From positions 395,655 to 459,654 of the forward strand of contig NZ_KB903835.1 of assembly GCF_000379825.1 (NCBI RefSeq): DNA of 64,000 nucleotides, given 5' to 3'. Each line of letters begins with the position of its first letter. Within the stretch, counting starts at the first letter, position 1. A model generated the notes under the pieces. That model was not told where the DNA came from and did not search any database. It saw only the letters and a list, made by a program, of their open reading frames with translations. Positions 42,145 to 57,922 of the stretch are shown piece by piece. The translations under genes and the position numbers were made by a program. This stretch comes from Longispora albida DSM 44784. GTDB lineage: Bacteria > Actinomycetota > Actinomycetes > Mycobacteriales > Micromonosporaceae.

Positions 42145-44664
42145 TCACGCGTACCGCCCGGGGCGGACGTAGGGCACGAAGGTCGACACGCGGTCGGTGT
42201 GCCGGTCGATGAGCAGTGCGCGGTTGGGCCGGTACTGCCAGTCGAGCTGTGCCTGTCCCAGCAGCATCGCGACCTCCGAGCCCGGCAGGTTGAGCGTGAC
42301 GAGGCAGGCGACGTCCTCCCGGCCGGAGGACCCGCCGATGTCCTCGTTGAACCGCCGCAGGCCGCGCCACCAGCCGAGCACGTGCACCCCGCGGGCCGGG
42401 CCGGAGCGGAGCAGGTCCCGCAGGTCGGCCAGCCCGGAGCGGCCTCGGTCCGGATCGCGCTGTTCGAGCATGCCGCTGGCGGCGTCGGCTCCGAAGAGGA
42501 CGAGGTACGTGGCCTTCTGGCGGCCGTCGGTGGCCGGGTCGGCCAGGCCAGCGAGGGTGTTGCGCAGCGTGTACGCGTCGAGCAGCTCGTAGCTGTGCCC
42601 GAGCCGGTCGAGGTCGGTGACGACGTCCGCACAGACCGGGTCGGCTGCGGCGACGAGCGGGGCCAGGCAGAACCGTGCCTCGCCTGGTTCGTGCTGGCGC
42701 GCGAGTCCCAGGACGGCAGCGTGCAGGATGTCAGCCCCGACCTCACTCGGCCCGAGGACGGCGATGTGCCGGCCGGGGCTGGTGTCGAGGGGGAAGGCGG
42801 CCGTGGAGCCGGGCACGTCCACGTTCCGGCCGACGATGATCTCGGGGCGGCGGCGCTGGGCCGGGGCCTGGAACATCGGATCGGCCTGGACGTGCTGCTC
42901 CGCGTACCCCTCGAACACGCTCGGCGGCTCCGAACCGGCCGGCCGGGCCTGCCACAGCGCGTGCCGCAGCTCGGTCAGGGTGTCGGCCTCGGCGTTCGGG
43001 TCGGGGAACCGGATGATCGTGTCGTGCCCGGCCGCGCCGGCCGACACGTTGATGATCGCCTCACCGAGCCGGAGCGCCTGGGCGGCGTTGTTCATCGGGT
43101 CGAGCACCCCGCCGCCACCCGGGAGCGCGATCCGGGCGGCGAACTGGCCGAAGATGGACTCCTTCTTGGTGTACAGCGCCTCGACCCCGCTGACCGTCTG
43201 GCTGGCGAGGACGAGGTGGATGCCGTACGACCGGCCCTTGCGGGCGAGCGATTCGAGCAGGGCCACGGCGTCCCTGGCGAGCTGGTCGTTGCCGTCGAAC
43301 AGCACCTGGAACTCGTCGATCACGCAGACGATCCGGGCCGGGGCGGATTCGAGGTCGGCGAGCTTGGTGACGCCGGCCCGCTTGAGCACACTCGACCGCC
43401 GGGTCATCTCGTCGTCGAGTTCCCGGAGGACGGCGACACCGTACTCCCGGTCGGACTCGATGCCGACGGCCCGCGCGTGCGGGATCCACGACGGGTCGCG
43501 CTCGGTCGGGGTGAACTCGGTGAAGCTCACGCCCTCCTTGAAATCCAGCAGGTACAGGGTCAGGTCGGCTGGCCCGTACCTCGTCGCCAGCCCGTACAGC
43601 ATCGTCACCAGGAAAGCTGTCTTACCGGCACCCGACCGGCCGCCGACCAGCCAGTGTGGAGTGGCGTCGTCGAAGCTGAGCGTGTGTTCCGCCCGGCCGG
43701 CCCGCCCGACAGTGGTCCGCAGCCCGGCCCGGCTCGACTCCGACCAGCGCTGGGCGGGCAGCAGCGCTGCCAGTTCCGTACGGCTGCCCTGCTGTGCTTC
43801 GGCGGCGACCCGGGTGGCGATGCGCTCGATCAGCGCGTCCGGCGGGGCCTGGTCGACATGGATGGGAATCGTCGACGACTCGCCGCCGGGGCTGATCAGC
43901 AGCGCGTGCGCCGGGCCGAGCGCCAGCTGCGTACTCTTCGGCAGCGGCTGTCCGGTGTGGGCGGTCACGAGCAGGTGCAGCTTCGCGGCCGGGCCAGCGT
44001 GCGCGAGAGCGGCGATCCGGGCGGTGTCAGCCGGTTCGAGCAGCTCAGGGGCGGTGGCGATCACGACCAGCAGGTACGGCAGATCGTGGTGTGCTGCCTT
44101 GATCTGCCGCTCGGCCTCGTCCAGCACCTGCTTGAGCCCGTCACGGCTGGTGACCGGCGGTGGCAGGGTGCCACTCTCGAACAGCGGCCGGAACGGTGCG
44201 GTCGCCGCACCCATCGTCGCCGTGTCAGCGATCAGAATCCGCAGGTCACGCGGCGGAAGGCTCGCCAGCAGGCGAAGGAGAGCCGTCCGGATCAGCGCCG
44301 TCGCGGCAGGGTTGCGGGCGTCGGCGTCGATCGCGAGATGCCCGGCACCGAGCAGCGGCACGAGCAGCGGGAAGGAGGCGTCGGGCAGTGGCCGCGCCTC
44401 ACCGACCCTGATCAGCCGGTGACTCTCCGGTACCGGGTAGTCGGCGTCAGCGGTCAGCGGCCCGCCGAGCCAGCCGGGAGCGATCTCCTGCGCCGTGCGG
44501 GCGATGCGCTCGGCGATGACCCGCTGCTCGGCCGTGGACTCAGCGGAGTAACCGCTGGCGGTCGGCACCTCCAGCGCGCGCCGGACCGCCGCCAGCAGTC
44601 CCGAGGCCTGCCGGTGCAGGGCGACCGCCTGCTCGACCCCGGACCGCAGAGCTCCCAATCCCAT
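42145..44664 (-). CDS. orphan FtsK/SpoIIIE-type ATPase (EccC-like three-domain)
   Basis: An 839-residue protein with three tandem FtsK-like domains. Only the middle one looks catalytic: Walker A GGRSGAGKT with K348, Walker B VCVIDEFQVLF, and LVLASQTVSG. The first (about 95-290) has no P-loop (HLAIDADARNPAATALIR), and the third (about 640-830) has GPSEVGADIL where G-K-S/T is expected. No transmembrane segment is present, unlike FtsK and EccC. Three-domain ATPases with one active site recall EccC of type VII secretion and related actinobacterial proteins. ATG 44664 follows TAGCGT by 7 nt. The two small downstream genes are likely partners. Confidence 0.82.
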   Translation of the reverse strand: MGLGALRSGVEQAVALHRQASGLLAAVRRALEVPTASGYSAESTAEQRVIAERIARTAQEIAPGWLGGPLTADADYPVPESHRLIRVGEARPLPDASFPLLVPLLGAGHLAIDADARNPAATALIRTALLRLLASLPPRDLRILIADTATMGAATAPFRPLFESGTLPPPVTSRDGLKQVLDEAERQIKAAHHDLPYLLVVIATAPELLEPADTARIAALAHAGPAAKLHLLVTAHTGQPLPKSTQLALGPAHALLISPGGESSTIPIHVDQAPPDALIERIATRVAAEAQQGSRTELAALLPAQRWSESSRAGLRTTVGRAGRAEHTLSFDDATPHWLVGGRSGAGKTAFLVTMLYGLATRYGPADLTLYLLDFKEGVSFTEFTPTERDPSWIPHARAVGIESDREYGVAVLRELDDEMTRRSSVLKRAGVTKLADLESAPARIVCVIDEFQVLFDGNDQLARDAVALLESLARKGRSYGIHLVLASQTVSGVEALYTKKESIFGQFAARIALPGGGGVLDPMNNAAQALRLGEAIINVSAGAAGHDTIIRFPDPNAEADTLTELRHALWQARPAGSEPPSVFEGYAEQHVQADPMFQAPAQRRRPEIIVGRNVDVPGSTAAFPLDTSPGRHIAVLGPSEVGADILHAAVLGLARQHEPGEARFCLAPLVAAADPVCADVVTDLDRLGHSYELLDAYTLRNTLAGLADPATDGRQKATYLVLFGADAASGMLEQRDPDRGRSGLADLRDLLRSGPARGVHVLGWWRGLRRFNEDIGGSSGREDVACLVTLNLPGSEVAMLLGQAQLDWQYRPNRALLIDRHTDRVSTFVPYVRPGRYA

Positions 44665-44720: not shown

Positions 44721-45200
44721 TCAGGGGCGTCGTTCACTGTGGCCGGACAGAGCCGTGGTCACGGCGGTGATCGCGTCGTCGAGCGTCTCGTGTTCCCAGA
44801 GCCGGACCACCTGCCAGCCGGCCTCGGCAAGAGCCTCGTTGGCGGCCTTGTCCCGTTCGACGTTACGGCGGAGCTTCGGCGTCCAGTACCACTCGTTACT
44901 GGTCGGTTCCCGGCCGTGCACCGGGCACACGTGCCAGAAGCAGCCGTCCACGAACACGGCGACCTTGCGCGCGGTGAAGACGATGTCTGGCCGGACCCGG
45001 ACACCGGACGGCAGGTCCAGCCGCAGGTCCTTCCGGTACCGCAGGCCACGCGCGTGCAGCGCCTTCCGCAGCGCCACCTCCGGCTTCGTGTCCGACCGGC
45101 GGTTGGCCTTCATGTTCCGCGACCGGCCCTCGTTCTTCGGCCGGGGATACAGCCCCCTGGCGTACGCCTGCTCGCGGGAATCCTTGCCAGTACTCGCCAC
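44721..45200 (-). CDS. vsr: very short patch repair endonuclease (Vsr)
   Basis: A 159-residue nuclease that in E. coli nicks T:G mismatches left by deamination of methylated cytosine. Recognisable are NMKANRRSDTKPEVALRKALH, RPDIVFTARKVAVFVDGCFWHVCPVHG (metal and zinc-site region), and the ending ERDKAANEALAEAGWQVVRLWEHE. No cytosine methyltransferase is adjacent, unlike in many species; vsr alone is common in actinobacteria. GTG 45200 is chosen because TACGTT lies 7 nt upstream; the frame is open further and would overlap the divergent gene. Confidence 0.9.
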   Translation of the reverse strand: MASTGKDSREQAYARGLYPRPKNEGRSRNMKANRRSDTKPEVALRKALHARGLRYRKDLRLDLPSGVRVRPDIVFTARKVAVFVDGCFWHVCPVHGREPTSNEWYWTPKLRRNVERDKAANEALAEAGWQVVRLWEHETLDDAITAVTTALSGHSERRP

Positions 45201-45282: not shown

Positions 45283-45894
45283 ATGAGCGGTGCCGAACCC
45301 GAGGAACCCATGTGGCCCATGGCCCAGCCCTCGAGCACCCAGCCACCAGCCACGATCCCCGATCAGCCCCCGGCAGCCGCAGAAGTCCCCGCCCAGCGCG
45401 CCACGGAACCCGCCGCCGGCCCGGCAGCCCCGCCCGCAGCCACCACGGCCCCGGCGAAGCGCCGCCTGGCCGGCCGCCGGATCGCGCTGATCGCCGGCAT
45501 CGCGGCAGCCCTGGTACTGATCTCGGCAGGCTGGCTCGCCCTGAACGTCTACGACGAGAAAACCAAGATCGACCGAAGCACGCCGACGGTCGCGGTCACC
45601 CAGCTCGTCGACGCACTGTTCACCCAGCGCGACGAGTCAGCCGTCGCCCGCTTCAGCTGCAGGAAGCCACAGCTGGCACCGCTTCGGGACTTGGCGGCCG
45701 ACCTTGCTCAACGTGAGAAGCGATTTAACACCCGCTTCGCCGTGACGGTGCGTAATCTTCAGCTCAAAGGTTCGTCCACTGTGGAAGTTGAACTTGGCCT
45801 GGCCGCCTCGGGTACCGAGGACGTTCAGCCGTGGATCTTCGAAACCGTTGACGAGGACGGCTGGCGGGTCTGCTCCGCCCGTAAGGCTGCCTGA
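45283..45894 (+). CDS. single-pass membrane protein with Pro-rich N-terminus and NTF2-like outer domain
   Basis: A 203-residue protein: a Pro/Ala-rich cytoplasmic N-terminus of about 60 residues, basic RRLAGRR, a transmembrane helix (about 66-86, IALIAGIAAALVLISAGWLAL), then an outer domain of about 110 residues (VAVTQLVDALFTQRDESAVARFSC; VRNLQLKGSSTVEVELGLAA; WIFETVDEDGWRVCSA). The domain resembles SnoaL/NTF2-like or DUF4878-type lipoprotein domains with a likely disulfide (C near 124 and C near 199). Function unknown. It is divergent from vsr and ends 1 nt before the stop of the permease gene. Confidence 0.72.
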   Translation: MSGAEPEEPMWPMAQPSSTQPPATIPDQPPAAAEVPAQRATEPAAGPAAPPAATTAPAKRRLAGRRIALIAGIAAALVLISAGWLALNVYDEKTKIDRSTPTVAVTQLVDALFTQRDESAVARFSCRKPQLAPLRDLAADLAQREKRFNTRFAVTVRNLQLKGSSTVEVELGLAASGTEDVQPWIFETVDEDGWRVCSARKAA

Positions 45895-49270: not shown

Positions 49271-49276
49271 AGGCTA
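49271..49276 (-). promoter_or_regulatory. leaderless-type -10 of the folP operon
   Basis: TAGCCT on the minus strand, exactly 6 nt before GTG 49264. It lies in the 9-bp gap after the stop of the upstream membrane-protein gene, so the two genes may be read separately. Confidence 0.5.
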
Positions 49277-50089
49277 ATCCCGCTCTTCGGCCGCCTCGGG
49301 CCCGGCCTCGTCCAGCGGCCACACCGCCAGCTCGACCGCGCCGGCCGCCGACACGGGCAACTGCACGAGCCCGATCGGCATGAGGCGGAAATCCGTCAGC
49401 CGGACGAACCGGCGGCCCGCACAGTCCTCAGCGGCCACCACCACCAGCCACGTACCCGCGGCATCCAGGTACACCCAGCCCAGCTGCGCGTCCTCCGGCA
49501 CCGCCGGGTCGTACAAGACCGCCCCCGCAGCCCCAGCCGCCATCACCGGGTCGGCCTGCGACGTGCCATTTACCTGCGGCGTGCCGTACACCTGCGGCGT
49601 GCCAGCCACCTGGGGCTGCACCGGTACCTGCGGCATCCCGGGCATGCCCGGCACCAGCACCGGCAGCAGCGCCGCACCCTTCGCGTACGCGGAGATCTCC
49701 ACCCGCCGGACCAGCTTCGTCACCCCGAGCAGCCCCGCGAGCAGCACCAGCGCCCCGGAGCCCGCCACCAGTACCCAGTGCCAGAGCGGAGTCACCGGCA
49801 CCGACCACACGACCCCGCCAGCCCCGGCCGTGGCCAGCAGCAACCCGAGGGCCACAGCGGACACCGCGAGCGGCCCGGTACCCAGGTGGGGCCGGCCAGC
49901 GGTGCCGAGGGCCACCGTGGACGCTCCAGCGCCGGGCACGGTGCTGCGGCCGCCCGCAGCCCTGGCCGTGGCCACGCCGACCCGGAGGGCGCGCGCGGCC
50001 CGGGCGACGCCGAGGTCATATCCGCTTAAACCCGCCATCAGGAGGCCGGCAAACATGATCATCGTGCCGGCGATCGCCATCCGTACCAT
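49274..50089 (-). CDS. membrane protein with PQVxGT repeat loop, function unknown
   Basis: A 271-residue protein. There are about three hydrophobic segments (IAGTMIMFAGLLMAGLSGYD; GPLAVSAVALGLLLATAGAGG; WHWVLVAGSGALVLLAGLLG). A loop of five PQV-type repeats (PQVAGT, PQVYGT, PQVNGT) encoded by 18-bp DNA repeats follows, then a soluble C-terminal domain of about 100 residues (LYDPAVPEDAQLGWVYLD; GTWLVVVAAEDCAGRRFVRL). GGGAGG 6 nt before ATG 50089 sets the start. It is divergent from the T4SS-like operon and may be connected with it, but there is no direct evidence. Confidence 0.7.
   Translation of the reverse strand: MVRMAIAGTMIMFAGLLMAGLSGYDLGVARAARALRVGVATARAAGGRSTVPGAGASTVALGTAGRPHLGTGPLAVSAVALGLLLATAGAGGVVWSVPVTPLWHWVLVAGSGALVLLAGLLGVTKLVRRVEISAYAKGAALLPVLVPGMPGMPQVPVQPQVAGTPQVYGTPQVNGTSQADPVMAAGAAGAVLYDPAVPEDAQLGWVYLDAAGTWLVVVAAEDCAGRRFVRLTDFRLMPIGLVQLPVSAAGAVELAVWPLDEAGPEAAEERD
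49557..49646. repeat. five 18-bp tandem coding repeats
   Basis: Units begin at 49557, 49575, 49593, 49611 and 49629; the first three share TGCG(G/A)CGTGCC and the last two are more diverged. They encode the PQVxGT loop of the membrane protein and could vary in copy number. Confidence 0.65.
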
Positions 50090-50298: not shown

Positions 50299-50589
50299 AT
50301 GTCCGTGATGGAATTCGCGCAGGCCGCGCAGTCCGCCGGCCCTGTGCTGCTCGCCGCCGACCCAGAAATCAACACGACTGGTGTCCTGGGCTTCTTCGCC
50401 ACGAAGATCGTGCCGATCCTGCTCGCCGTGCTCGGCGTGATCTTCATCGGCCGTGCCAACAAGGGCGAAGTGTCCAAGGTGCTCACCAGCTCCGCGATCG
50501 CGATCGTCGGCATGGTCTTCGTGGCCGGCGCCGCGACGCTGTTCTTCCTCGGCGAGTATCTGATCAAGCTCCTGTTCACCAAGCAGTGA
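50299..50589 (+). CDS. small membrane protein, VirB2-like candidate, first gene of T4SS-like operon
   Basis: A 96-residue protein. A short N-terminal part (MSVMEFAQAAQSAGPVLLAADPEINTTG, read with a break) is followed by two transmembrane helices (IVPILLAVLGVIFIGRA; ITS-like SSAIAIVGMVFVAGAATLFFLG) joined by the basic turn NKGEVSKV. Size, two helices and first position before VirB3- and VirB4-like genes are typical of VirB2/TrbC-type subunits. No clear signal peptidase site is seen. GGGGAGG 6 nt before ATG 50299. Confidence 0.65.
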   Translation: MSVMEFAQAAQSAGPVLLAADPEINTTGVLGFFATKIVPILLAVLGVIFIGRANKGEVSKVLTSSAIAIVGMVFVAGAATLFFLGEYLIKLLFTKQ

Positions 50590-50608
50590 CTGCTGAGACG
50601 GGCTGACC

Positions 50609-50971
50609 ATGCGGCTGAGGACAGATGACGACATCTACCGGGCTCGTCTGGTCTACCTGGGCCCGCCCGGGTACACGCTGCCGGTCCACTTGCCGTACGC
50701 GCAATATGGACTTTTCATCGCGTTAGTACCCGTTTTCATGTTCATTCACTACCTGTTCAGCCTTAAGGTTGACCTGTTCCCGGCGTGGGAGATCGCGCTG
50801 GCAATGGTGACCACGTCGTTCGTGTTCCGGCATGTCGACCCGGACCGTCCTGCCCGCATGGTCATCCGCACCGCGCTCACCGACTGGCGCCGGACCACGG
50901 AACCCCGCACCGAACAGCGGGAACCCAGGCTGGTCGCCCGTCGGGTGCTCATCCGCGAGGAGCTGACATGA
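50609..50971 (+). CDS. VirB3/PrgI-like membrane protein
   Basis: A 120-residue protein: hydrophilic N-terminus, two hydrophobic helices (YGLFIALVPVFMFIHYLFSL and FPAWEIALAMVTTSFVF), and a basic cytoplasmic tail (WRRTTEPRTEQREPRLVARRV). The two-helix protein directly before a VirB4-like ATPase is the hallmark of VirB3/TcpE/PrgI components. Its stop overlaps the ATPase ATG (ATGA at 50968), so the two are translationally coupled. Confidence 0.7.
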   Translation: MRLRTDDDIYRARLVYLGPPGYTLPVHLPYAQYGLFIALVPVFMFIHYLFSLKVDLFPAWEIALAMVTTSFVFRHVDPDRPARMVIRTALTDWRRTTEPRTEQREPRLVARRVLIREELT

Positions 50972-53900
50972 CCACCGCCCCAGGCAGGCCAGGCGAGCCG
51001 ACCCCGGCAGCTGGCGAGAAGCCGCCGGTCCCGGGCCAGGCGGGGCCGGTCGCGGTCTTCCGCGCGCCCGGCGCCGACATGAGCTCGTCGATCCTGGACG
51101 CTGACGACGCGACCCTGTCGCCGTTCCTGGGCCTGGTCACGCCGTCAGCGCCAGAACAGGCCGCCGCCGAACGCCCGGCGCCCCCTGCCGTACCCGCCCC
51201 GCCGGCCGGCCGTCCCGCTGTGGACCGGCCGGCTACAGGCCGTCCCGCTGTGGACCGTCCTTCCGGAGACCGTCCTCCTGTGGACCGTCCTCCCGTGGAC
51301 CGGCGCGCTGCGGAGGCTCCGCGACGCGAGCCGGTCCGCCGCCGGATCGAGGAGCCGGGACACCAGCAGGTCATCCCGCCTGCCGCCCCGGGCATGCCGC
51401 CCACAGCGCCTCAGGCTGCCGCGACCGCGCCGCCAGCGGCACCTCGCCGCCGGCCCGAGCCGCCCGTGCCTCCTGTCGTGCAGGCTCCATCCACTGTGCC
51501 CCCGCGCGCCCCGGAGCCTCGCCCGCAGCCGGCGCCACCCGCTCCGCCCGTTGTTCCACCCACGCCGCCCACCCCGCGCCCACCGGACTCCGACCCGCTC
51601 GCCCAGCACGTAGACGAGCTGTTCTCGGCCGCCGTCGAGGCAGTACGGGCACCGGCGGAGACTGGTGAGCAGCTCGCGCCGAAGGTCACCGGCCGGGCCA
51701 GCGCCCCGCCCGGCTCCCGCCCCGACCGGGACAACCGGCCCACGGAGGACATCCGCATCGGACGGCGGCCCCAGCCGGTCGTGCCCGAGCCGGTGCGCGC
51801 CGACCCGAAGCCCCGCCGTGTCCCGAGCAGGGCACTCCAGCCGATCCGCGACGGCGTGCCGAAGCGGCAGCTCCCCAGGTTCCGTGACCGCGACCCGGTC
51901 GCCGACATGGCGATCACCGAGGTCGCCGGGCACCTGACGTTCACGCCGAACACGATCACCGCGTGGTACTGGCTGCCGGAGGTCCGCTGGGCCTTCCGGC
52001 CGGACGCCGAGCGCGAGGCGCTGATCGTGGCGATCTCCGAGCAGTACGCCGGCCTGGCGGGCTTCCGCCTCCACCTGCGCCGGACGACCATGCCGTTCCC
52101 TGCCGACGAGTGGGCGCGCACAGTGGACGCCCACACGCCCCGGCCGCTCCCGCCGGTCCCCGGCGCGCCGAGCTGGGGTGACCACCTGGTCAACGCGCAG
52201 AAGCACCTGCTCCAGGTGAACCACGCCGAGGGGCAGACGTATCTCGGCATCACGTTCGCCCGCCGGACGCTCGGCGACTCGCTCAGCGAGAAGATCAGCC
52301 GGATGTTCGGCAAGGGCGTGACCGAGTCGGAGCGCAAGCGGACGGCGCGGCTCGTCGAGCAGTTCGACGAGGTGCTGGGCGCGTTCGGCATGCGCGGCCG
52401 CCGGGTCACCGTCAAGGAACTCGAGTGGCTGCTCTACCGCTCCGTCGCGCTGTGCATGTCACCGCCGCGCGAGATGTCCCCGGTCGGCTCCGGCGAGTGG
52501 GAGCGCGGGGACCTGCTGGCGATGACCGAGCACATCGAGCGGTACCGCACGCCGTACGGCTCCACCGTGAAGCTGGTCAACCGGCTGACCGGCGAGGAAC
52601 GCCACGTGTGCGTGCTGACCGTGGGCCGGATGGAGCCGCTGGAGATCCCCGAGCGGCACGAGCCGTGGCTGCACTTCCACGAGCGGCTGCCGTACCCGAT
52701 GGAGATCTCCAGCCGGGTCGACGCGCTCGGCCAGAACGACACTTTCAAGAACCTTGAGCACCGGCTGCGCATGATCCGCTCCCAGCAGCGCGACTACGCC
52801 GACCACGGCATCGACGCGCCGCCGGAGCTCGAACGCCTCGCCCAGCGGGCGCTCGGCATCGGTGACGAGGTCACCACCGGCCTGCCGATCGACGCTGCCC
52901 GCGTCCACGGCTGGCACCGGATCGCCGTCGGCGGCAACAGCCGCGAGGAGGCACTCGAACGCGCCCGCAAGCTCATCCAGATGTACTCCCGTGAGCTGCG
53001 CGTGTCCCTCCAGCACCCGAAGAACCAGGACTGGCTGGCCCGCGAGTTCATCCCGGGTGAGCCGATCGCCAACTCCGGGTACGTGCGCCGGATGCCGGTC
53101 AAGCTCTTCGCCGCCGCGCTCCCGCAGGCCGCGTCCACCGTGGGCGACCGGCGCGGTGACCTGATCGGCCGCACCGCTGGTACGTGCCGCCGGCCGGTGT
53201 TCCTCGACGTGCACTTCCCGACCGAGGTACGTGAGCGCTCCGGGCTGGCCGTGTTCGTCGCCGAGCCCGGCGGTGGCAAGTCGACCCTGATGGGTGCCCT
53301 CGGCTACCTGGCCTCCCGGCGTGGCGTCCAGGTGACGATGCTCGACCCGTCGGGGCCGCTCGGCCGGCTGTGCGAGATGCCGGAACTCAAGCCGTACTCC
53401 CGCGTGCTGAACCTGACCGGCTCCGGTCACGGGACCCTCGCGCCGTACGCGCTGATCCCCACTCCACAGCGCACCCACTTCGCCGTCGGGTCCGAAGGGG
53501 ACCGCGAGTTCCAGATCGCGCTCGGCAACGCCCGCGCCGAACGCCGGATGCTCGTCCAGGACATCTGCTCGATGCTCGTCCCGCCGCAGGTGGCCCGCGA
53601 GTCCCGCACGGCCACGCTGCTCAGGCACGCCGTCCGCAAGGTACCGGCTGAGGAGACAGCGACCCTCGACGACATCGTCAAGGCGCTCCAGGACGGCGAC
53701 GACCACTCGCGTGAGCTGGGCAATCTGCTGCTTGACACGGCGGAGATGCCCCTGGCGCTGCTGTTCTTCGGCCGTCCGCCGGAGGGCGCCCTCGGCGACG
53801 ACAAGACGCTCACCGTGATCACGATGGCGGGCCTGCGCCTGCCAGACCTCAAGATCGAGCGTGAGTACTGGTCGGCGGAGGAGCAGCTCGCCCTGCCGAT

Positions 53901-54411
53901 GCTCCACACGGCACACCGGCTGGCCGTGCGGCGCTGCTACTCCGGGGACATGCACCGGCGCAAGCTCGTCGGCCTGGACGAGGCCCACTTCATGGAGGGC
54001 TGGCGGTCCGGCCGGTCCTTCCTGGTCCGGCTCGCCCGCGACTCCCGAAAGTGGAACCTGGCAGCTTTGGTCGCCTCCCAGAACCCGAAAGACATTCTCG
54101 GACTCGACGTGCAAAACCTCGTGTCCACTGTGTTCGTGGGACGGATCGCCGAGGACTCCGAGATCGCGGAGGAGGCGCTGCGCCTGCTCAGAGTGCCGCG
54201 CGGGGTCGGATATGAGCAGACCTTGGCGACACTCTCCCAAGTTGAGGCATCATCACAGGATCGGCTCGGATTCCGGGAGTTCGTGATGCGCGACGTGGAT
54301 GGGCGGGTGCAGAAGGTGCGAGTGGACATCTCCTACGTGCCAGGCTTGCTGGACTTCCTGGACACCACGCCGATGACGGCTGCGGAGGCTACTGCACAGG
54401 AGAGTCAGTAG
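50968..54411 (+). CDS. VirB4/TraC-like secretion ATPase with long Pro-rich N-terminus
   Basis: An 1147-residue ATPase. Residues 1-270 are disordered and Pro/Arg-rich, including RPAVDRP/RPPVDRP repeats. The VirB4 N-domain spans roughly 290-740. The C-terminal ATPase domain has Walker A EPGGGKST (K771) and Walker B KLVGLDEAHFM (D1004-E1005), followed by VASQNPKDILG, the VirB4-type arrangement. It energises pilus or channel assembly in T4SS. No relaxase or VirD4-type coupling protein is found nearby. It overlaps the preceding and following genes, as expected of one operon. Confidence 0.85.
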   Translation: MTTAPGRPGEPTPAAGEKPPVPGQAGPVAVFRAPGADMSSSILDADDATLSPFLGLVTPSAPEQAAAERPAPPAVPAPPAGRPAVDRPATGRPAVDRPSGDRPPVDRPPVDRRAAEAPRREPVRRRIEEPGHQQVIPPAAPGMPPTAPQAAATAPPAAPRRRPEPPVPPVVQAPSTVPPRAPEPRPQPAPPAPPVVPPTPPTPRPPDSDPLAQHVDELFSAAVEAVRAPAETGEQLAPKVTGRASAPPGSRPDRDNRPTEDIRIGRRPQPVVPEPVRADPKPRRVPSRALQPIRDGVPKRQLPRFRDRDPVADMAITEVAGHLTFTPNTITAWYWLPEVRWAFRPDAEREALIVAISEQYAGLAGFRLHLRRTTMPFPADEWARTVDAHTPRPLPPVPGAPSWGDHLVNAQKHLLQVNHAEGQTYLGITFARRTLGDSLSEKISRMFGKGVTESERKRTARLVEQFDEVLGAFGMRGRRVTVKELEWLLYRSVALCMSPPREMSPVGSGEWERGDLLAMTEHIERYRTPYGSTVKLVNRLTGEERHVCVLTVGRMEPLEIPERHEPWLHFHERLPYPMEISSRVDALGQNDTFKNLEHRLRMIRSQQRDYADHGIDAPPELERLAQRALGIGDEVTTGLPIDAARVHGWHRIAVGGNSREEALERARKLIQMYSRELRVSLQHPKNQDWLAREFIPGEPIANSGYVRRMPVKLFAAALPQAASTVGDRRGDLIGRTAGTCRRPVFLDVHFPTEVRERSGLAVFVAEPGGGKSTLMGALGYLASRRGVQVTMLDPSGPLGRLCEMPELKPYSRVLNLTGSGHGTLAPYALIPTPQRTHFAVGSEGDREFQIALGNARAERRMLVQDICSMLVPPQVARESRTATLLRHAVRKVPAEETATLDDIVKALQDGDDHSRELGNLLLDTAEMPLALLFFGRPPEGALGDDKTLTVITMAGLRLPDLKIEREYWSAEEQLALPMLHTAHRLAVRRCYSGDMHRRKLVGLDEAHFMEGWRSGRSFLVRLARDSRKWNLAALVASQNPKDILGLDVQNLVSTVFVGRIAEDSEIAEEALRLLRVPRGVGYEQTLATLSQVEASSQDRLGFREFVMRDVDGRVQKVRVDISYVPGLLDFLDTTPMTAAEATAQESQ
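51208..51302 (+). repeat. coding tandem repeats in the VirB4-like gene
   Basis: Imperfect 12-30-bp units built on CGTCC(T/C)...GTGGACCG; a 20-bp unit occurs identically at 51208 and 51238. They encode the RP(A/P)VDRP repeats of the disordered N-terminus and are a likely spot for length variation. Confidence 0.6.
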
Positions 54412-56222
54412 TGTCCGGCCATCGTCGCTGGGCAGCCATTCTTCTCACCGCACTCGTCACGGGCCTGATGCTCGTCGTACCGGTCGCTCCGGCCGGTGCG
54501 GCTGCCCCGTGCAGCCTGGAGGAATGGCGGGAGCCCGGCAAGCTCACCGAGTGCGTCGACCGGCTGCAGAAGGTCAGCTCGGCGCGCGCCCAGTGCCTCA
54601 AGGCCCCGACGCCGAGCGCGCCGGACTCCGGGATGGCCGGCTGGTTCGCCTCCCGCCCCGAGTCCTCCCGCAAGCCCGGCGTGACCGGCATGTACTCCAA
54701 GTACGGCTACGCCGGGTACGACTTCACCACCTACGACATCGACTGCGTGCAGACCACGATGCACCCGTCGTACAAGTTCGAGAACACGATCGCCAACGGC
54801 GAGTTCATGCTCGCCACCGGGATCGTCGGCGCGGCCAACGCGCTGCGCGAGCGCGCCTGGCAGCCCAAGGAGCTGTGGGGCTGGGCTGACCCGCTGGTGG
54901 AGAAGGCCACCAAGGCGGTGTACACCAAGGTCTTCACGGTCTTCGGCGCGCTGACCCTGGCGGTCGTCGGCCTCTACCTGCTGTGGCGCTCCCGCCAGTC
55001 GGACATGTCGGCGACGATGACCACGGCTGGCTGGGCGCTGTTCGTGCTGGTGATCGTGACAGCTCTGGCCACCTGGCCCACCAAGGCCGCAGGCCTGGCC
55101 GACGCCACCCTGACCGGCGGCCTGTCCGCCGTGCACGGCGCGGTCGGCCCGTCGGTGAAGGACATCCCGCCGGAGAAGTGCCCGCAGCCCAATCCTGCCG
55201 CGTGCAAGGACAACCGGCCGCCGGCCGTTCGCGCCGGCGACAGCGCCGTGGATACGTTGCTGTACAAGAACTGGCTGCGTGGCACGCTCGGCAGCGCGGA
55301 CAGTGTGACGGCGCAGAAGTACGGCATGGCGCTCTACGACGCCAAGTCCTTCTCCTGGGACGAGGCCGAGCTGATGCGCAAGGAGCCGGTCCAGCGGCAG
55401 ATCATCATCACCAAGAAGGCCGACGAGTGGCAGCGGGTCGCTGAGCAGATCAAGTCGGAGGACCCGGAGGCCTACGAGTACCTCCAGGGCATGCGCGGCA
55501 CCGACCGGATCGGGGCCGGCTTCATCGCGATCCTCGCCTCCCTCGCGTACGCGTTCTTCGACATCACGGCCTCGGTGCTCGTGCTGCTCGGTTTCGTGCT
55601 GTTCCGCTGGGCGGTGATCGCGGCGCCCGTCATCGGTACGCTCGCGCTGCTCCGGCCAGCGAGCGCCGGTTTCCGCCGGCTGATGAACGCGGTGGTCGCA
55701 GCCGTGTTCAACATCCTCATCTTCGGTACCGGGGCGGCGATCTACCTCTTCGCCGTCGACCAGATCATGGGTACCGCTGCCCTGCCTGGCTGGCTGCAGG
55801 TGGTGCTGATCTGGCTGTGTGGCGTGGTCGGCTGGATGCTCCTGCGCCCGTACCGGCGGATCACCCAGATGGCTGGCAAGGAGTCGGGTGCCGCGGCCCC
55901 CGGCGCGAGCTGGCGGGAGCGCTTCTTCGCCGACCTGCGCTCGGCTGCGGTCGCCTCGAAGGCCTCCACGGAGCCGGAGCAGAAGGCCGCCGACCAGACC
56001 AGCACCACGAGCTCGCCGCGCGCGGAGTCCAGGGTGGAGGAGGCCCCGGCCCGCGCCGAGACGACATCCAGGCCCGAGTCGACATCCGCCCCGTCCTCGA
56101 CACCACGCGAGGCTCCGGTACGGGAGGCCAGGCCGGCTCCGTCCGCCCCGCGTTCCCAGGCGGACACCTGGGGTGGCGAGGTGTACCGCCCAGCGGAGTC
56201 CCGAGCGGAGGAACGGGTGTAG
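54411..56222 (+). CDS. VirB6/TrbL-like polytopic membrane protein
   Basis: A 603-residue protein. It starts with a signal-like segment ending in VAPAGAAAP, then a Cys-containing outer domain (C33, C47, C62, C106 approximately). About seven hydrophobic helices follow: VFTVFGALTLAVVGLYLLW; WALFVLVIVTALATW; a cluster at about 360-480 with FFDITASVLVLLGFVLFRW and VVAAVFNILIFGTGAAIYLF. The C-terminal 110 residues are hydrophilic and Pro/Arg/Ser-rich. The layout fits VirB6/TrbL/TcpH channel proteins. GTG 54411 shares its G with the preceding TAG stop. Confidence 0.75.
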   Translation: MSGHRRWAAILLTALVTGLMLVVPVAPAGAAAPCSLEEWREPGKLTECVDRLQKVSSARAQCLKAPTPSAPDSGMAGWFASRPESSRKPGVTGMYSKYGYAGYDFTTYDIDCVQTTMHPSYKFENTIANGEFMLATGIVGAANALRERAWQPKELWGWADPLVEKATKAVYTKVFTVFGALTLAVVGLYLLWRSRQSDMSATMTTAGWALFVLVIVTALATWPTKAAGLADATLTGGLSAVHGAVGPSVKDIPPEKCPQPNPAACKDNRPPAVRAGDSAVDTLLYKNWLRGTLGSADSVTAQKYGMALYDAKSFSWDEAELMRKEPVQRQIIITKKADEWQRVAEQIKSEDPEAYEYLQGMRGTDRIGAGFIAILASLAYAFFDITASVLVLLGFVLFRWAVIAAPVIGTLALLRPASAGFRRLMNAVVAAVFNILIFGTGAAIYLFAVDQIMGTAALPGWLQVVLIWLCGVVGWMLLRPYRRITQMAGKESGAAAPGASWRERFFADLRSAAVASKASTEPEQKAADQTSTTSSPRAESRVEEAPARAETTSRPESTSAPSSTPREAPVREARPAPSAPRSQADTWGGEVYRPAESRAEERV

Positions 56223-56225
56223 CCG

Positions 56226-56768
56226 ATGCGCTGGCTGTCCTATCTGGGTGCCCGGTACGGGATCGCACTCGGCCTCGCCCTGCTCATCGCCGGTCTGGTA
56301 CTCACGGTCCGGCTCGCGGGGCCCGCGCCGGGCGGCGAGCCCGTCATGCCGGGCGGCACCGGTACCCAGGCTGTACCGGCCACGCAGGAGCACGCCGACG
56401 AGGGCCATGACCTGGAGCCCAGCCGGGCGCCGGCCAGCCCGTCGACGGGTGCGGGCTTCGCCCCGCCCGACGTCGTCGCGAAGACGTTCACGTCAGCGTG
56501 GCTCCGGCACACGGGTGTGTCGGGGGAGCAGTGGCTGACGGGCCTCAAGCCGTACGCGACCGCCGCGCTGCTCGACAAGCTCAAGGGGGTCGACCCGGCC
56601 GGCGTGCCGGCTGAGCGGATCACCGGCGACCCGGTACCGGGTGCGTTCGCCGGCCAGGCATTCGTGGAGTACCGGCTGCCGGTGGATTCTGGCACGCTGA
56701 CCCTCCGTCTCATCGCCCAGAATGGACAGTGGCGGGTGGACACCATCGACTGGGAGCGCCGAAGGTGA
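56226..56768 (+). CDS. single-pass membrane protein with NTF2-like domain (VirB8/TcpC-like candidate)
   Basis: A 180-residue protein: one transmembrane helix near the N-terminus (ALGLALLIAGLVLTVRL, about 13-31), a Pro/Thr linker of about 45 residues, and an outer domain of about 100 residues (VVAKTFTSAWLRHTGVSGEQW; PVPGAFAGQAFVEYRLPV; WRVDTIDWERR). This is the topology of VirB8 and TcpC, whose NTF2-like domains line the T4SS channel. It is 4 nt after the VirB6-like stop, and its own stop overlaps the peptidase GTG. Assignment rests on topology and context. Confidence 0.65.
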   Translation: MRWLSYLGARYGIALGLALLIAGLVLTVRLAGPAPGGEPVMPGGTGTQAVPATQEHADEGHDLEPSRAPASPSTGAGFAPPDVVAKTFTSAWLRHTGVSGEQWLTGLKPYATAALLDKLKGVDPAGVPAERITGDPVPGAFAGQAFVEYRLPVDSGTLTLRLIAQNGQWRVDTIDWERRR

Positions 56769-57922
56769 GAAAGAAGGTGATCATTCCGGCGGTGATGGCC
56801 GGTGTGCTCGCCTTGCTGTGCTGCGCCGGTGGGATCACCGCTGCCCTGCTCGGCGGGCTCAACCCGCAGGAGGAGCAGCCTGGCCTGAATCTCGCGGCGT
56901 GCGGCTCCGGTTCCACGATCGATCTGCAGAAGCTCCCGAAGCTGTCCGAGATGACGCCGGAGCAGATGCGCAACGCCGCGCTCATCGTCCAGGAGGGCCA
57001 GCGGCTGACCGTGCCGCCCCGGGGCTGGGTGATCGCGATCGGCACGGCGCTCCAGGAGTCCAACCTGCGGAATCTGGCGAACAGCAACGTGCCGCGTTCC
57101 CTGAACATCCCGCACGAGGGTGTCGGCCGCGACCACGACAGCGTCGGCCTGTTCCAGCAGCGTCCGCTGCCGCCGGACGGCGCGGGTGGCTGGGGCACGG
57201 TCGAGGAGCTGATGACCCCGGCGACGAGCGCGAAAAAGTTCTACGACAAGCTGCGGACCATCCAGGGCTGGGAGCTGATGCGGCTCACGGACGCAGCCCA
57301 GCGCGTGCAGGTCAGTGCTTTTCCCGAGGCGTACCAGAAGTGGGAGCCGATCGCCGCGACCATCGTCGACGCGCTGACCGGCGGCGGGGCCCGCGCGATC
57401 GCCGTGTCCAAGCCCGACGAGCTCCGGTGTGCCCCGCCCGGCCAGGTGACGGCCGGCGGCTGGGCCGCCCCGGTCACGCACGAGGTGACCAGCTCGTTCG
57501 GCCCGAGGTCCGGCGGGTACCACTACGGCGTCGACCTCGGCTCCCCGCGCAACTCGGTGATCCGGGCCGCCTCGTCCGGCACGGTGATCACCGCGGAGTG
57601 CAACGCGCACGTGGGCGGCGACTACTGGGGCTGCGACCGGGACGGCGGCGTCTGGGTGAGCGGCTGCGGCTGGTACGTGGAGATCCGGCACGCGGAGAAC
57701 ATCGTCACCCGCTACTGCCACATGGTGACCCGGCCGAGCGTCCGCGTCGGTGACCTGGTCACGGTGGGCCAGCCGATCGGCATGATCGGCTCGTCGGGCA
57801 ACTCTTCCGGCCCCCACCTGCACTACGAGGTGCACATGGACGGCGACCTGAGCAGCCGGGGCGCGGTCGACCCCGTGGTGTTCATGGCCGGCCGCGGCGC
57901 CCCGCTCGGCAACCCCGGCTAG
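56765..57922 (+). CDS. cell-wall hydrolase: lytic-transglycosylase-like plus M23 peptidase (VirB1/TcpG-like)
   Basis: A 385-residue membrane-anchored or exported hydrolase. One N-terminal helix (VIIPAVMAGVLALLCCAGGITAAL, written here with both Cys) is followed by a transglycosylase-like domain (WVIAIGTALQESNLRNLANS; DHDSVGLFQQRP) and an M23 zinc endopeptidase domain with HYGVDLG and the HLHYEVH (HxH) site. Cutting both glycan and peptide is as expected for the VirB1/TcpG wall-opening component of Gram-positive T4SS. GTG 56765 overlaps the previous stop (GTGA). It closes the operon. Confidence 0.85.
   Translation: MRKKVIIPAVMAGVLALLCCAGGITAALLGGLNPQEEQPGLNLAACGSGSTIDLQKLPKLSEMTPEQMRNAALIVQEGQRLTVPPRGWVIAIGTALQESNLRNLANSNVPRSLNIPHEGVGRDHDSVGLFQQRPLPPDGAGGWGTVEELMTPATSAKKFYDKLRTIQGWELMRLTDAAQRVQVSAFPEAYQKWEPIAATIVDALTGGGARAIAVSKPDELRCAPPGQVTAGGWAAPVTHEVTSSFGPRSGGYHYGVDLGSPRNSVIRAASSGTVITAECNAHVGGDYWGCDRDGGVWVSGCGWYVEIRHAENIVTRYCHMVTRPSVRVGDLVTVGQPIGMIGSSGNSSGPHLHYEVHMDGDLSSRGAVDPVVFMAGRGAPLGNPG

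Follow-up and report, generated by a model that had tools for sequence, protein, structure and literature searches.

The 64,000-nucleotide window analysed here comes from Longispora albida DSM 44784 (C22:395655-459654 of genome G000, 6.82 Mb) and carries, at 50299-57922 on the forward strand, an operon of six open reading frames (ORFs) lying in one orientation and almost abutting. Judged by sequence and predicted structure, the six genes are a monoderm type IV secretion system (T4SS) core. A preliminary description of the window had proposed six T4SS-like genes at this place, and they proved real and correctly placed, VirB4, VirB6, VirB8 and the hydrolase being now identified by match or fold. 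The same description had claimed a full channel set; this stands for the VirB4, VirB6, VirB8 and VirB1 features, whereas VirB2 and VirB3/PrgI are assigned by position, topology and a weak TcpE match.

Analysis of the individual products revealed the following relationships. First, the VirB4 ATPase matched the AAA_10 family of Pfam (E 2.4e-23), the TcpF ATPase of NCBIfam (1.8e-20, under that model's curated cut-off) and, in a profile search, the solved VirB4-like protein 4ag5 (2.4e-6). Secondly, the VirB6-like protein matched the CD3337/EF1877 mobilome membrane family (NCBIfam, 2.5e-6, under cut-off), and its predicted model (predicted local distance difference test score, pLDDT, 80.7) retrieved R388 TrwI/VirB6 chains as all of its top nine Foldseek matches (best E 2.3e-3, probability 1.00, with moderate TM-scores). 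Thirdly, structure prediction of the 180-residue protein, suggested in the preliminary description, returned a VirB8 fold (pLDDT 83.9), namely a transmembrane helix followed by an NTF2-like domain. Its best Foldseek match was the VirB8 domain of PrgL (E 5e-3), while VIA-align placed TraM of pIP501 first (Z 11.4, root-mean-square deviation 2.7 over 97 residues), followed by CagV (Z 10.7) and DotI (Z 10.4). The VirB8 profile had no match among PDB sequences, and a Pfam scan of 41 VirB8 family rows found TcpC in one of them (E 0.038). The hydrolase combines a muramidase (8b2e, 3.9e-26) with an M23 endopeptidase (3.9e-22). Neither the 96-residue nor the 120-residue protein had a significant family match; TcpE appeared weakly (E 0.008) in one of 28 family members at the VirB3 position, a plasmid relative. 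Position and topology thus suggest the VirB2- and VirB3-type assignments. The base composition, described earlier as that of the surroundings, mostly resembles them, but 1-kb bins with a G+C content of 0.63 and 0.77 lie inside the operon.

Table. The six-gene operon and neighbouring features in the window (coordinates of the 64,000-nucleotide stretch)
Feature	Position	Strand	Basis
virB2-like, 96 aa, two hydrophobic helices	50299..50589	+	position, topology and family alignment; no Pfam match
virB3/prgI-like (TcpE position) membrane protein, 120 aa	50609..50971	+	mainly position; size, two hydrophobic helices
virB4 ATPase, 1147 aa, proline-rich N-terminal ~300 aa	50968..54411	+	AAA_10, TcpF, motifs
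virB6/TrbL-like polytopic channel protein, 603 aa	54411..56222	+	NCBIfam, Foldseek; alternative later start 54468
virB8 (TcpC/TraM-like), 180 aa, transmembrane helix and NTF2-like domain	56226..56768	+	structure model
virB1-type hydrolase, 385 aa, muramidase and M23 endopeptidase	56765..57922	+	profiles; GTG 56729 upstream also open
Divergent membrane protein, 271 aa, adjoining virB2	49274..50089	-	longer ORF; no Pfam match
g12 homologue, small membrane protein	45310..45894	+	assigned by reading two sequences; no Pfam match; start uncertain
Vsr endonuclease gene, adjoining the FtsK-like ATPase gene	44721..45200	-	TIGR00632 1.8e-47
FtsK/SpoIIIE-domain (EccC-like) ATPase, candidate partner	42145..44664	-	FtsK_SpoIIIE 4.4e-24 (Pfam), EccCa 1.8e-22 (NCBIfam)
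Membrane protein paired with the ATPase, 208 aa, three predicted transmembrane helices	41393..42019	-	no Pfam match
Predicted helical protein after the ATPase pair, 86 aa	41131..41391	-	predicted gene

To describe the distribution of the operon, we used a sample of 37 genomes from 36 genera (f1), which we take as Micromonosporaceae in the GTDB sense because these genomes share a VirB4 clade with Micromonosporaceae genera. A VirB4 orthologue was present in 35 of them, with 72-100% identity; the two exceptions were G006 (69% complete), with no match, and G024, with a weak one, while G025 and G031 showed extra, weaker matches. The full six-gene set occurred in all 29 loci whose VirB4 is at least 50% identical, 26 of them from f1 and three from families f11 and f13. 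A second set comprised the best 80 of 252 VirB4 relatives from genera-labelled genomes or metagenome-assembled genomes. Its named genera (Micromonospora, Salinispora, Dactylosporangium, Phytohabitans, Plantactinospora, Planosporangium, Virgisporangium, Asanoa and Verrucosispora) all belong to Micromonosporaceae, and its remaining members are metagenome-assembled genomes labelled to family or phylum level. All 80 loci have VirB4 and VirB6, whereas VirB8 was detected in 76, the hydrolase in 75, VirB2 in 63 and VirB3 likewise in 63. All misses fall at contig ends, except those of VirB2/VirB3 in the draft contigs L162 and L181, and the six-gene order is kept, bar these two, in the uncut family loci checked. 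In 15 of the 80 loci (L124, L130, L133, L135, L142, L144, L151, L156, L157, L161, L163, L164, L177, L180 and L190), the draft contig begins within virB4, in its proline-rich N-terminal region. Short-read assembly apparently fails there, masking virB2 and virB3.

The ratios of nonsynonymous to synonymous substitution (dN/dS) against the sister species were 0.27, 0.10, 0.23, 0.24, 0.27 and 0.32 for genes one to six, compared with 0.29, 0.32 and 0.36 for folP, folB and folK. The VirB4 motifs GGGKST (Walker A), LDEAH (Walker B) and RDSRK were intact in 106 of 106 family sequences. In the hydrolase family, the two M23 motifs were present in 100 and 97 of 100 sequences, and the muramidase motif in 98 of 100. 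A VirB4 tree, obtained by a quick method that flagged long branches and rooted on four VirB4s with a VirD4 nearby or in the same region, grouped f1 in one clade (33 rows, approximate likelihood-ratio support SH-aLRT 100), sister to the three f11/f13 loci (99). Because VirB4 forms one clade, dN/dS is similar to that of the fol genes and the flanks are ordinary, inheritance looks vertical. From these sequence comparisons, vertical inheritance of the six genes under purifying selection across Micromonosporaceae is well supported; the vertical retention proposed in the preliminary description is thereby borne out by the orthologue count, the kept gene order and the single clade. In surveys of the phylum, 4 of 396 genomes scored at E 1e-60, namely three family members, counting the own genome, and G050, and 4 of 148 scored at 1e-12, again with the own genome; absences are soft in these surveys, as few candidates were scored per genome.

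Regarding its genomic location, the block lies between folP and folE in most f1 genomes, in agreement with the fol-gene bounds first described, but this location is not fixed: the same-family loci L074, L076, L080-L082 and L105 have other neighbours. In f11/f13, the block has ribA/his-type genes on one side and infC-rplT-type genes on the other; in L091-L095 it lies among yet other ordinary chromosomal genes (several of these neighbours were named by reading their translations, with no family search). The proposed synteny comparison therefore upheld the six-gene order and not a constant fol location. In the window itself, folE and the FtsK-like ATPase with its partner lie across the fol genes in inverted order, whereas the sister species (L071) has the usual order; the window has therefore undergone a recent rearrangement.

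Several families accompany the block. Relatives of the divergent 271-residue membrane protein were detected by BLAST beside virB2 in L071, L074, L076, L080, L082, L102, L105, L122, L139 and L140. The g12 protein is encoded in relatives between the six genes and the FtsK-like ATPase. A 201-residue family without a Pfam match, g10 (L072:15018-15623), comes after the six genes at 75 of the 80 loci, and a weak relative (34%) accompanies the module in L095, a locus from a different bacterial family. No g10 member was detected close to the window's own operon; the family may be an additional part of the system. A Vsr relative (70%) occupies a similar place in L113.

Monoderm conjugation T4SSs, of the pIP501, pCF10, Tn916/ICESt3 and pCW3 class, possess a coupling protein and a relaxase and are mobile. 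The operon has VirB1, VirB4, VirB6 and VirB8 in common with them, together with a protein assigned to VirB3 mainly by position, and its predicted VirB8 fold is nearest to TraM, PrgL and TcpC. Among the window genes scanned with Pfam (~36.2-61.7 kb), no VirD4, relaxase or integrase family exceeded its cut-off. The earlier claim that no coupling ATPase, relaxase or integrase lies within 14 kb thus holds for these families over that interval, but an FtsK/SpoIIIE-domain ATPase is encoded 5.6 kb from the first operon gene. At the loci examined, no integrase, element borders or patchy distribution was seen (att repeats were not searched for), and the findings named beforehand as contrary, a relaxase or coupling gene just outside or a patchy distribution with mobile borders, did not appear.

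The proposed search of the whole genome did reveal VirD4-type and Replic_Relax genes, but in other places and none beside the operon. An orphan VirD4/TraG gene (C13:258092-259486, T4SS-DNA_transf 4e-28; L004:12670-16077, C13 ~256.7-260.1 kb) is flanked by a small gene and by one for a putative zinc-ribbon protein. Its close relatives (69-70%) occur only in G013 and G040 among 61 genomes, and we rejected it on this ground as a split-off coupling protein of the whole family. Used as a query, it had no VirD4-family match in 15 of the 35 f1 genomes with the module, although a single query may miss lineages. A candidate integrative element (L006/L007, C22:108000-147999) encodes a tyrosine integrase, a TraG/VirB4-type ATPase, a VirD4-like protein and Replic_Relax.

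Relatives of the operon's VirB4 were also found on plasmids, in 331 records, with a best identity of 38% among the matches listed. Ten of these loci were examined (nine linear and one circular plasmid), and in all ten the arrangement and direction of the six genes agree with those of the window, with VirB4 identities of 30-38% among the matches listed. This actinobacterial plasmid module, which is mostly borne by linear plasmids and includes the closest relatives outside the chromosomal clade, is exemplified by Streptomyces pRVR2, the Nonomuraea NBC_00507 plasmid and Rhodococcus opacus pRoPD630_1. It has the six genes in common with the chromosomal operon and differs in possessing a coupling-type ATPase gene (FtsK/SpoIIIE in eight of ten plasmid stretches and VirD4-type in one, with neither in Pseudonocardia p1), whereas the chromosomal clade lacks that ATPase family and is vertically kept. 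ParA-like genes lie in eight of the ten plasmid loci, and several plasmid hydrolases are of the NlpC/P60 (C40) type instead of M23. None of the ten stretches has an annotated relaxase, although the annotation used has gaps and a Rhodococcus plasmid was typed MOBP. MOB-suite types these relaxase-poor plasmids mostly as non-mobilizable. On linear plasmids, L199, L200, L202, L222, L223 and L225-L227 combine the six T4SS genes with an FtsK/SpoIIIE-type ATPase and often ParA. In the VirB4 tree, the plasmid proteins group with the chromosomal L091-L095 (40% identity), outside the f1 clade.

The window's FtsK-like ATPase also matched TraG/TrwB profiles weakly, under their cut-offs. Over ~150-175 residues, it is 25-26% identical to two plasmid FtsKs, which share 34% over 373 residues with each other. 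The hypothesis that it belongs to the plasmid coupling family was rejected in view of this low identity, which places it in another FtsK branch. A plasmid-FtsK profile matched ~90 residues of the motor domain (E ~1e-11 to 1e-13) in nearly every f1 genome and was somewhat longer and stronger in G014 (4.5e-18); outside the family, it reached 4e-40 in G054. As the short motor-domain matches read as ordinary FtsK, a dispersed plasmid-type FtsK in the family was rejected too. It is thus well supported that the six genes go with neither a relaxase nor a coupling ATPase of their own, whether of the VirD4 or of the plasmid FtsK/TcpA type.

Based on these comparisons, we propose, with a probability of roughly 60%, that the six genes are a monoderm type IV channel domesticated by the host lineage and serving a host role. 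The sequences make domestication of a plasmid-type transfer module likely, and it possibly took place several times within the order. VirB2, VirB3, VirB4, VirB6 and VirB8 would form a wall-crossing channel, with VirB4 driving assembly or movement, while the two-domain hydrolase would open the cell wall locally. Because there is no dedicated coupling protein, substrates would arrive without one, either already outside the membrane in a two-step route comparable to those of Ptl, Brucella VirB and ComB, or handed over to the channel by another ATPase. Among possible uses, we place an envelope complex first, protein export second and DNA uptake or cell-cell DNA exchange third.

The most likely use, which we put forward tentatively and by analogy with cmdABCDEF of Streptomyces coelicolor, would be that of an envelope complex within the mycelium in growth or sporulation. 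In PMC2782261, cmdABCDEF (SCO4126-4131) is presented as six co-transcribed chromosomal T4SS-like genes related to the transfer genes of the linear plasmid SLP2, whose deletion disturbs sporulation, chromosome segregation and branching, and which neither substitute for the SLP2 transfer genes nor affect the transfer of an SLP2-derived plasmid. Both operons have six genes, a chromosomal location and one VirB4-like ATPase. CmdB, compared by its description there, has its motor domain at residues 77-407 and lacks the long VirB4 form found here; the relation would be at the level of the T4SS superfamily. SsgA was present in all 43 genomes with the module, and the module was absent from all seven SsgA-negative genomes. 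Outside f1, it occurred in 8 of 17 SsgA-positive and 0 of 7 SsgA-negative genomes (Fisher p 0.054; G044 is included here by virtue of its VirB4 only). This co-occurrence is consistent with a link to development.

Several observations weigh against a domesticated channel with such a role. The VirB4 tree was made by a quick method and flagged long branches, which leaves the plasmid origin, like the direction in which the module changed, likely but unproven; and the FtsK-like neighbour could still be a coupling ATPase. The SsgA association is weak outside f1 and confounded by ancestry, and the module also occurs in G046 and G059, whose genomes measure only 2.4 and 3.0 Mb. The regions upstream of virB2 in 93 loci showed no enrichment of any known motif for a developmental sigma factor or for Bld/Whi, and developmental promoter motifs were rejected there; GACAC was present in 36 of these loci against 31.8 in shuffles. 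A VirB4 profile run on six presumed Streptomyces genomes gave no full CmdB-like match and a partial one in two. Lastly, assembly of the channel and transport through it are predictions from the genes.

The strongest competing explanation, though clearly less probable than the domesticated host channel, is a VirD4-less two-step protein exporter, or a T4SS/type VII secretion system (T7SS) mosaic fed by the EccC-like ATPase and its membrane partner, which would load the VirB channel with small proteins of a helical or WXG-like type. In 66 of the 80 loci, the FtsK-like ATPase gene closely follows the operon on its downstream side (eight of the 14 loci without it have less than 5 kb of sequence after virB4); by coordinate comparison, it is near the six genes in 21 of 35 f1 genomes, and in the window the gene of the 86-residue protein follows the ATPase pair. 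VirD4-less protein exporters are also known, as described in PMC12857230. On the other hand, the ATPase family is multi-copy, with two further good matches in the own genome, and G024 keeps the ATPase beside folE without an orthologue of the six genes, while in the basal loci and in f11/f13 the ATPase is not close to them. The plasmid coupling ATPases, moreover, belong to the other FtsK branch. A partnership between the candidate ATPase and the six genes is thus suggested by linkage and unproven.

As for T7SS features, an EccC-like domain was found, but the window's 86-residue protein had no WXG100 match, and no EccB, EccD or WXG100 family was detected among the neighbouring window genes scanned. 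A PPE-like gene (E 2.4e-6) was seen beside the operon in L080 only, a basal genome in which this gene and weak WXG-like genes flank the operon (L080:222-5206), in favour of export. In L081, paired proteins lie on both sides of the operon; those tested had no family match, which speaks against it. The unit formed by the ATPase, the 208-residue and the 86-residue proteins is also present at an unlinked site of the genome (L116, where DUF6244 proteins adjoin it) and is possibly an orphan T7SS-like system. A true hybrid, in which an EccC-like T7SS-type FtsK and its membrane partner replaced the original coupling ATPase of a plasmid-derived VirB channel that exports small helical proteins in mycelial actinomycetes, is doubtful; if true, such a machine would bridge type IV and type VII secretion and constitute an essential or developmental T4SS throughout a Gram-positive family.

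Somewhat less probable than export is DNA uptake or exchange, by a ComB-like or Ced-like machine that would import DNA or move chromosomal DNA between hyphae. The nearest relatives of the operon do sit in apparent DNA-transfer modules, and ComB runs on VirB2-VirB4 and VirB6-10 without VirD4, according to PMC12857230. Competence genes, however, were not seen in the neighbourhoods examined, where no search was aimed at them. It is improbable that the operon is a conjugation apparatus serving in trans, with integrative elements or an orphan VirD4 supplying the coupling protein and the relaxase. The own genome does hold such genes in the L006/L007 element and on C13, but that element has its own T4SS-type genes, and both the narrow occurrence of close C13 VirD4 relatives and the f1 module genomes without a VirD4-family match are unfavourable. 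A functionless, decaying remnant of an integrated plasmid, to which the absence of a plasmid-type coupling ATPase and of a relaxase could point, is refuted in practice because of the conservation of motifs, dN/dS and occurrence reported above. A phage origin was rejected, with three weak matches only, as was a defence system, since PADLOC gave P-loop matches (mad8, SspH, HerA) and a Vsr match but no system.

The favoured reading, a channel domesticated by the host lineage, has partial parallels among known systems. Like the T4SS of Patescibacteria, as presented in PMC12102498, the operon is chromosomal, near-ubiquitous in its group and of the monoderm class, the patescibacterial systems being mostly relaxase-free and having VirB2-like pilins. 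They differ, in the same source, in belonging to epibiotic ultrasmall cells with several VirB2 paralogues, and VirD4 homologues exist in many of their genomes, usually away from virB4. The present system belongs to a family of free-living, mycelial bacteria and has a single VirB2-like gene. Bordetella Ptl, Brucella VirB, Helicobacter ComB and Bartonella Trw (PMC12857230) use a VirB channel without VirD4, as proposed here, but all of them are Gram-negative and have outer-membrane core complexes. Within the family, PMC4182475 notes a solitary virB4 surrounded by unknown genes for Micromonospora lupini; as the genome of that species holds the module (L189), this is probably the same gene. The literature searches turned up no account of the present six-gene system in Micromonosporaceae. 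Chromosomal relaxase-free monoderm T4SSs in Patescibacteria, VirD4-less ones in Gram-negative bacteria and the T4SS-like cmd operon with its developmental role in Streptomyces are known.

Members of this family, which includes Micromonospora, Salinispora, Dactylosporangium and others, can be cultured and produce antibiotics. Their conserved T4SS, confined to one locus and lacking a coupling protein, opens other roles of Gram-positive T4SSs to direct test. If the proposed domestication is correct, it would offer an example of a conjugation channel turned core host structure.

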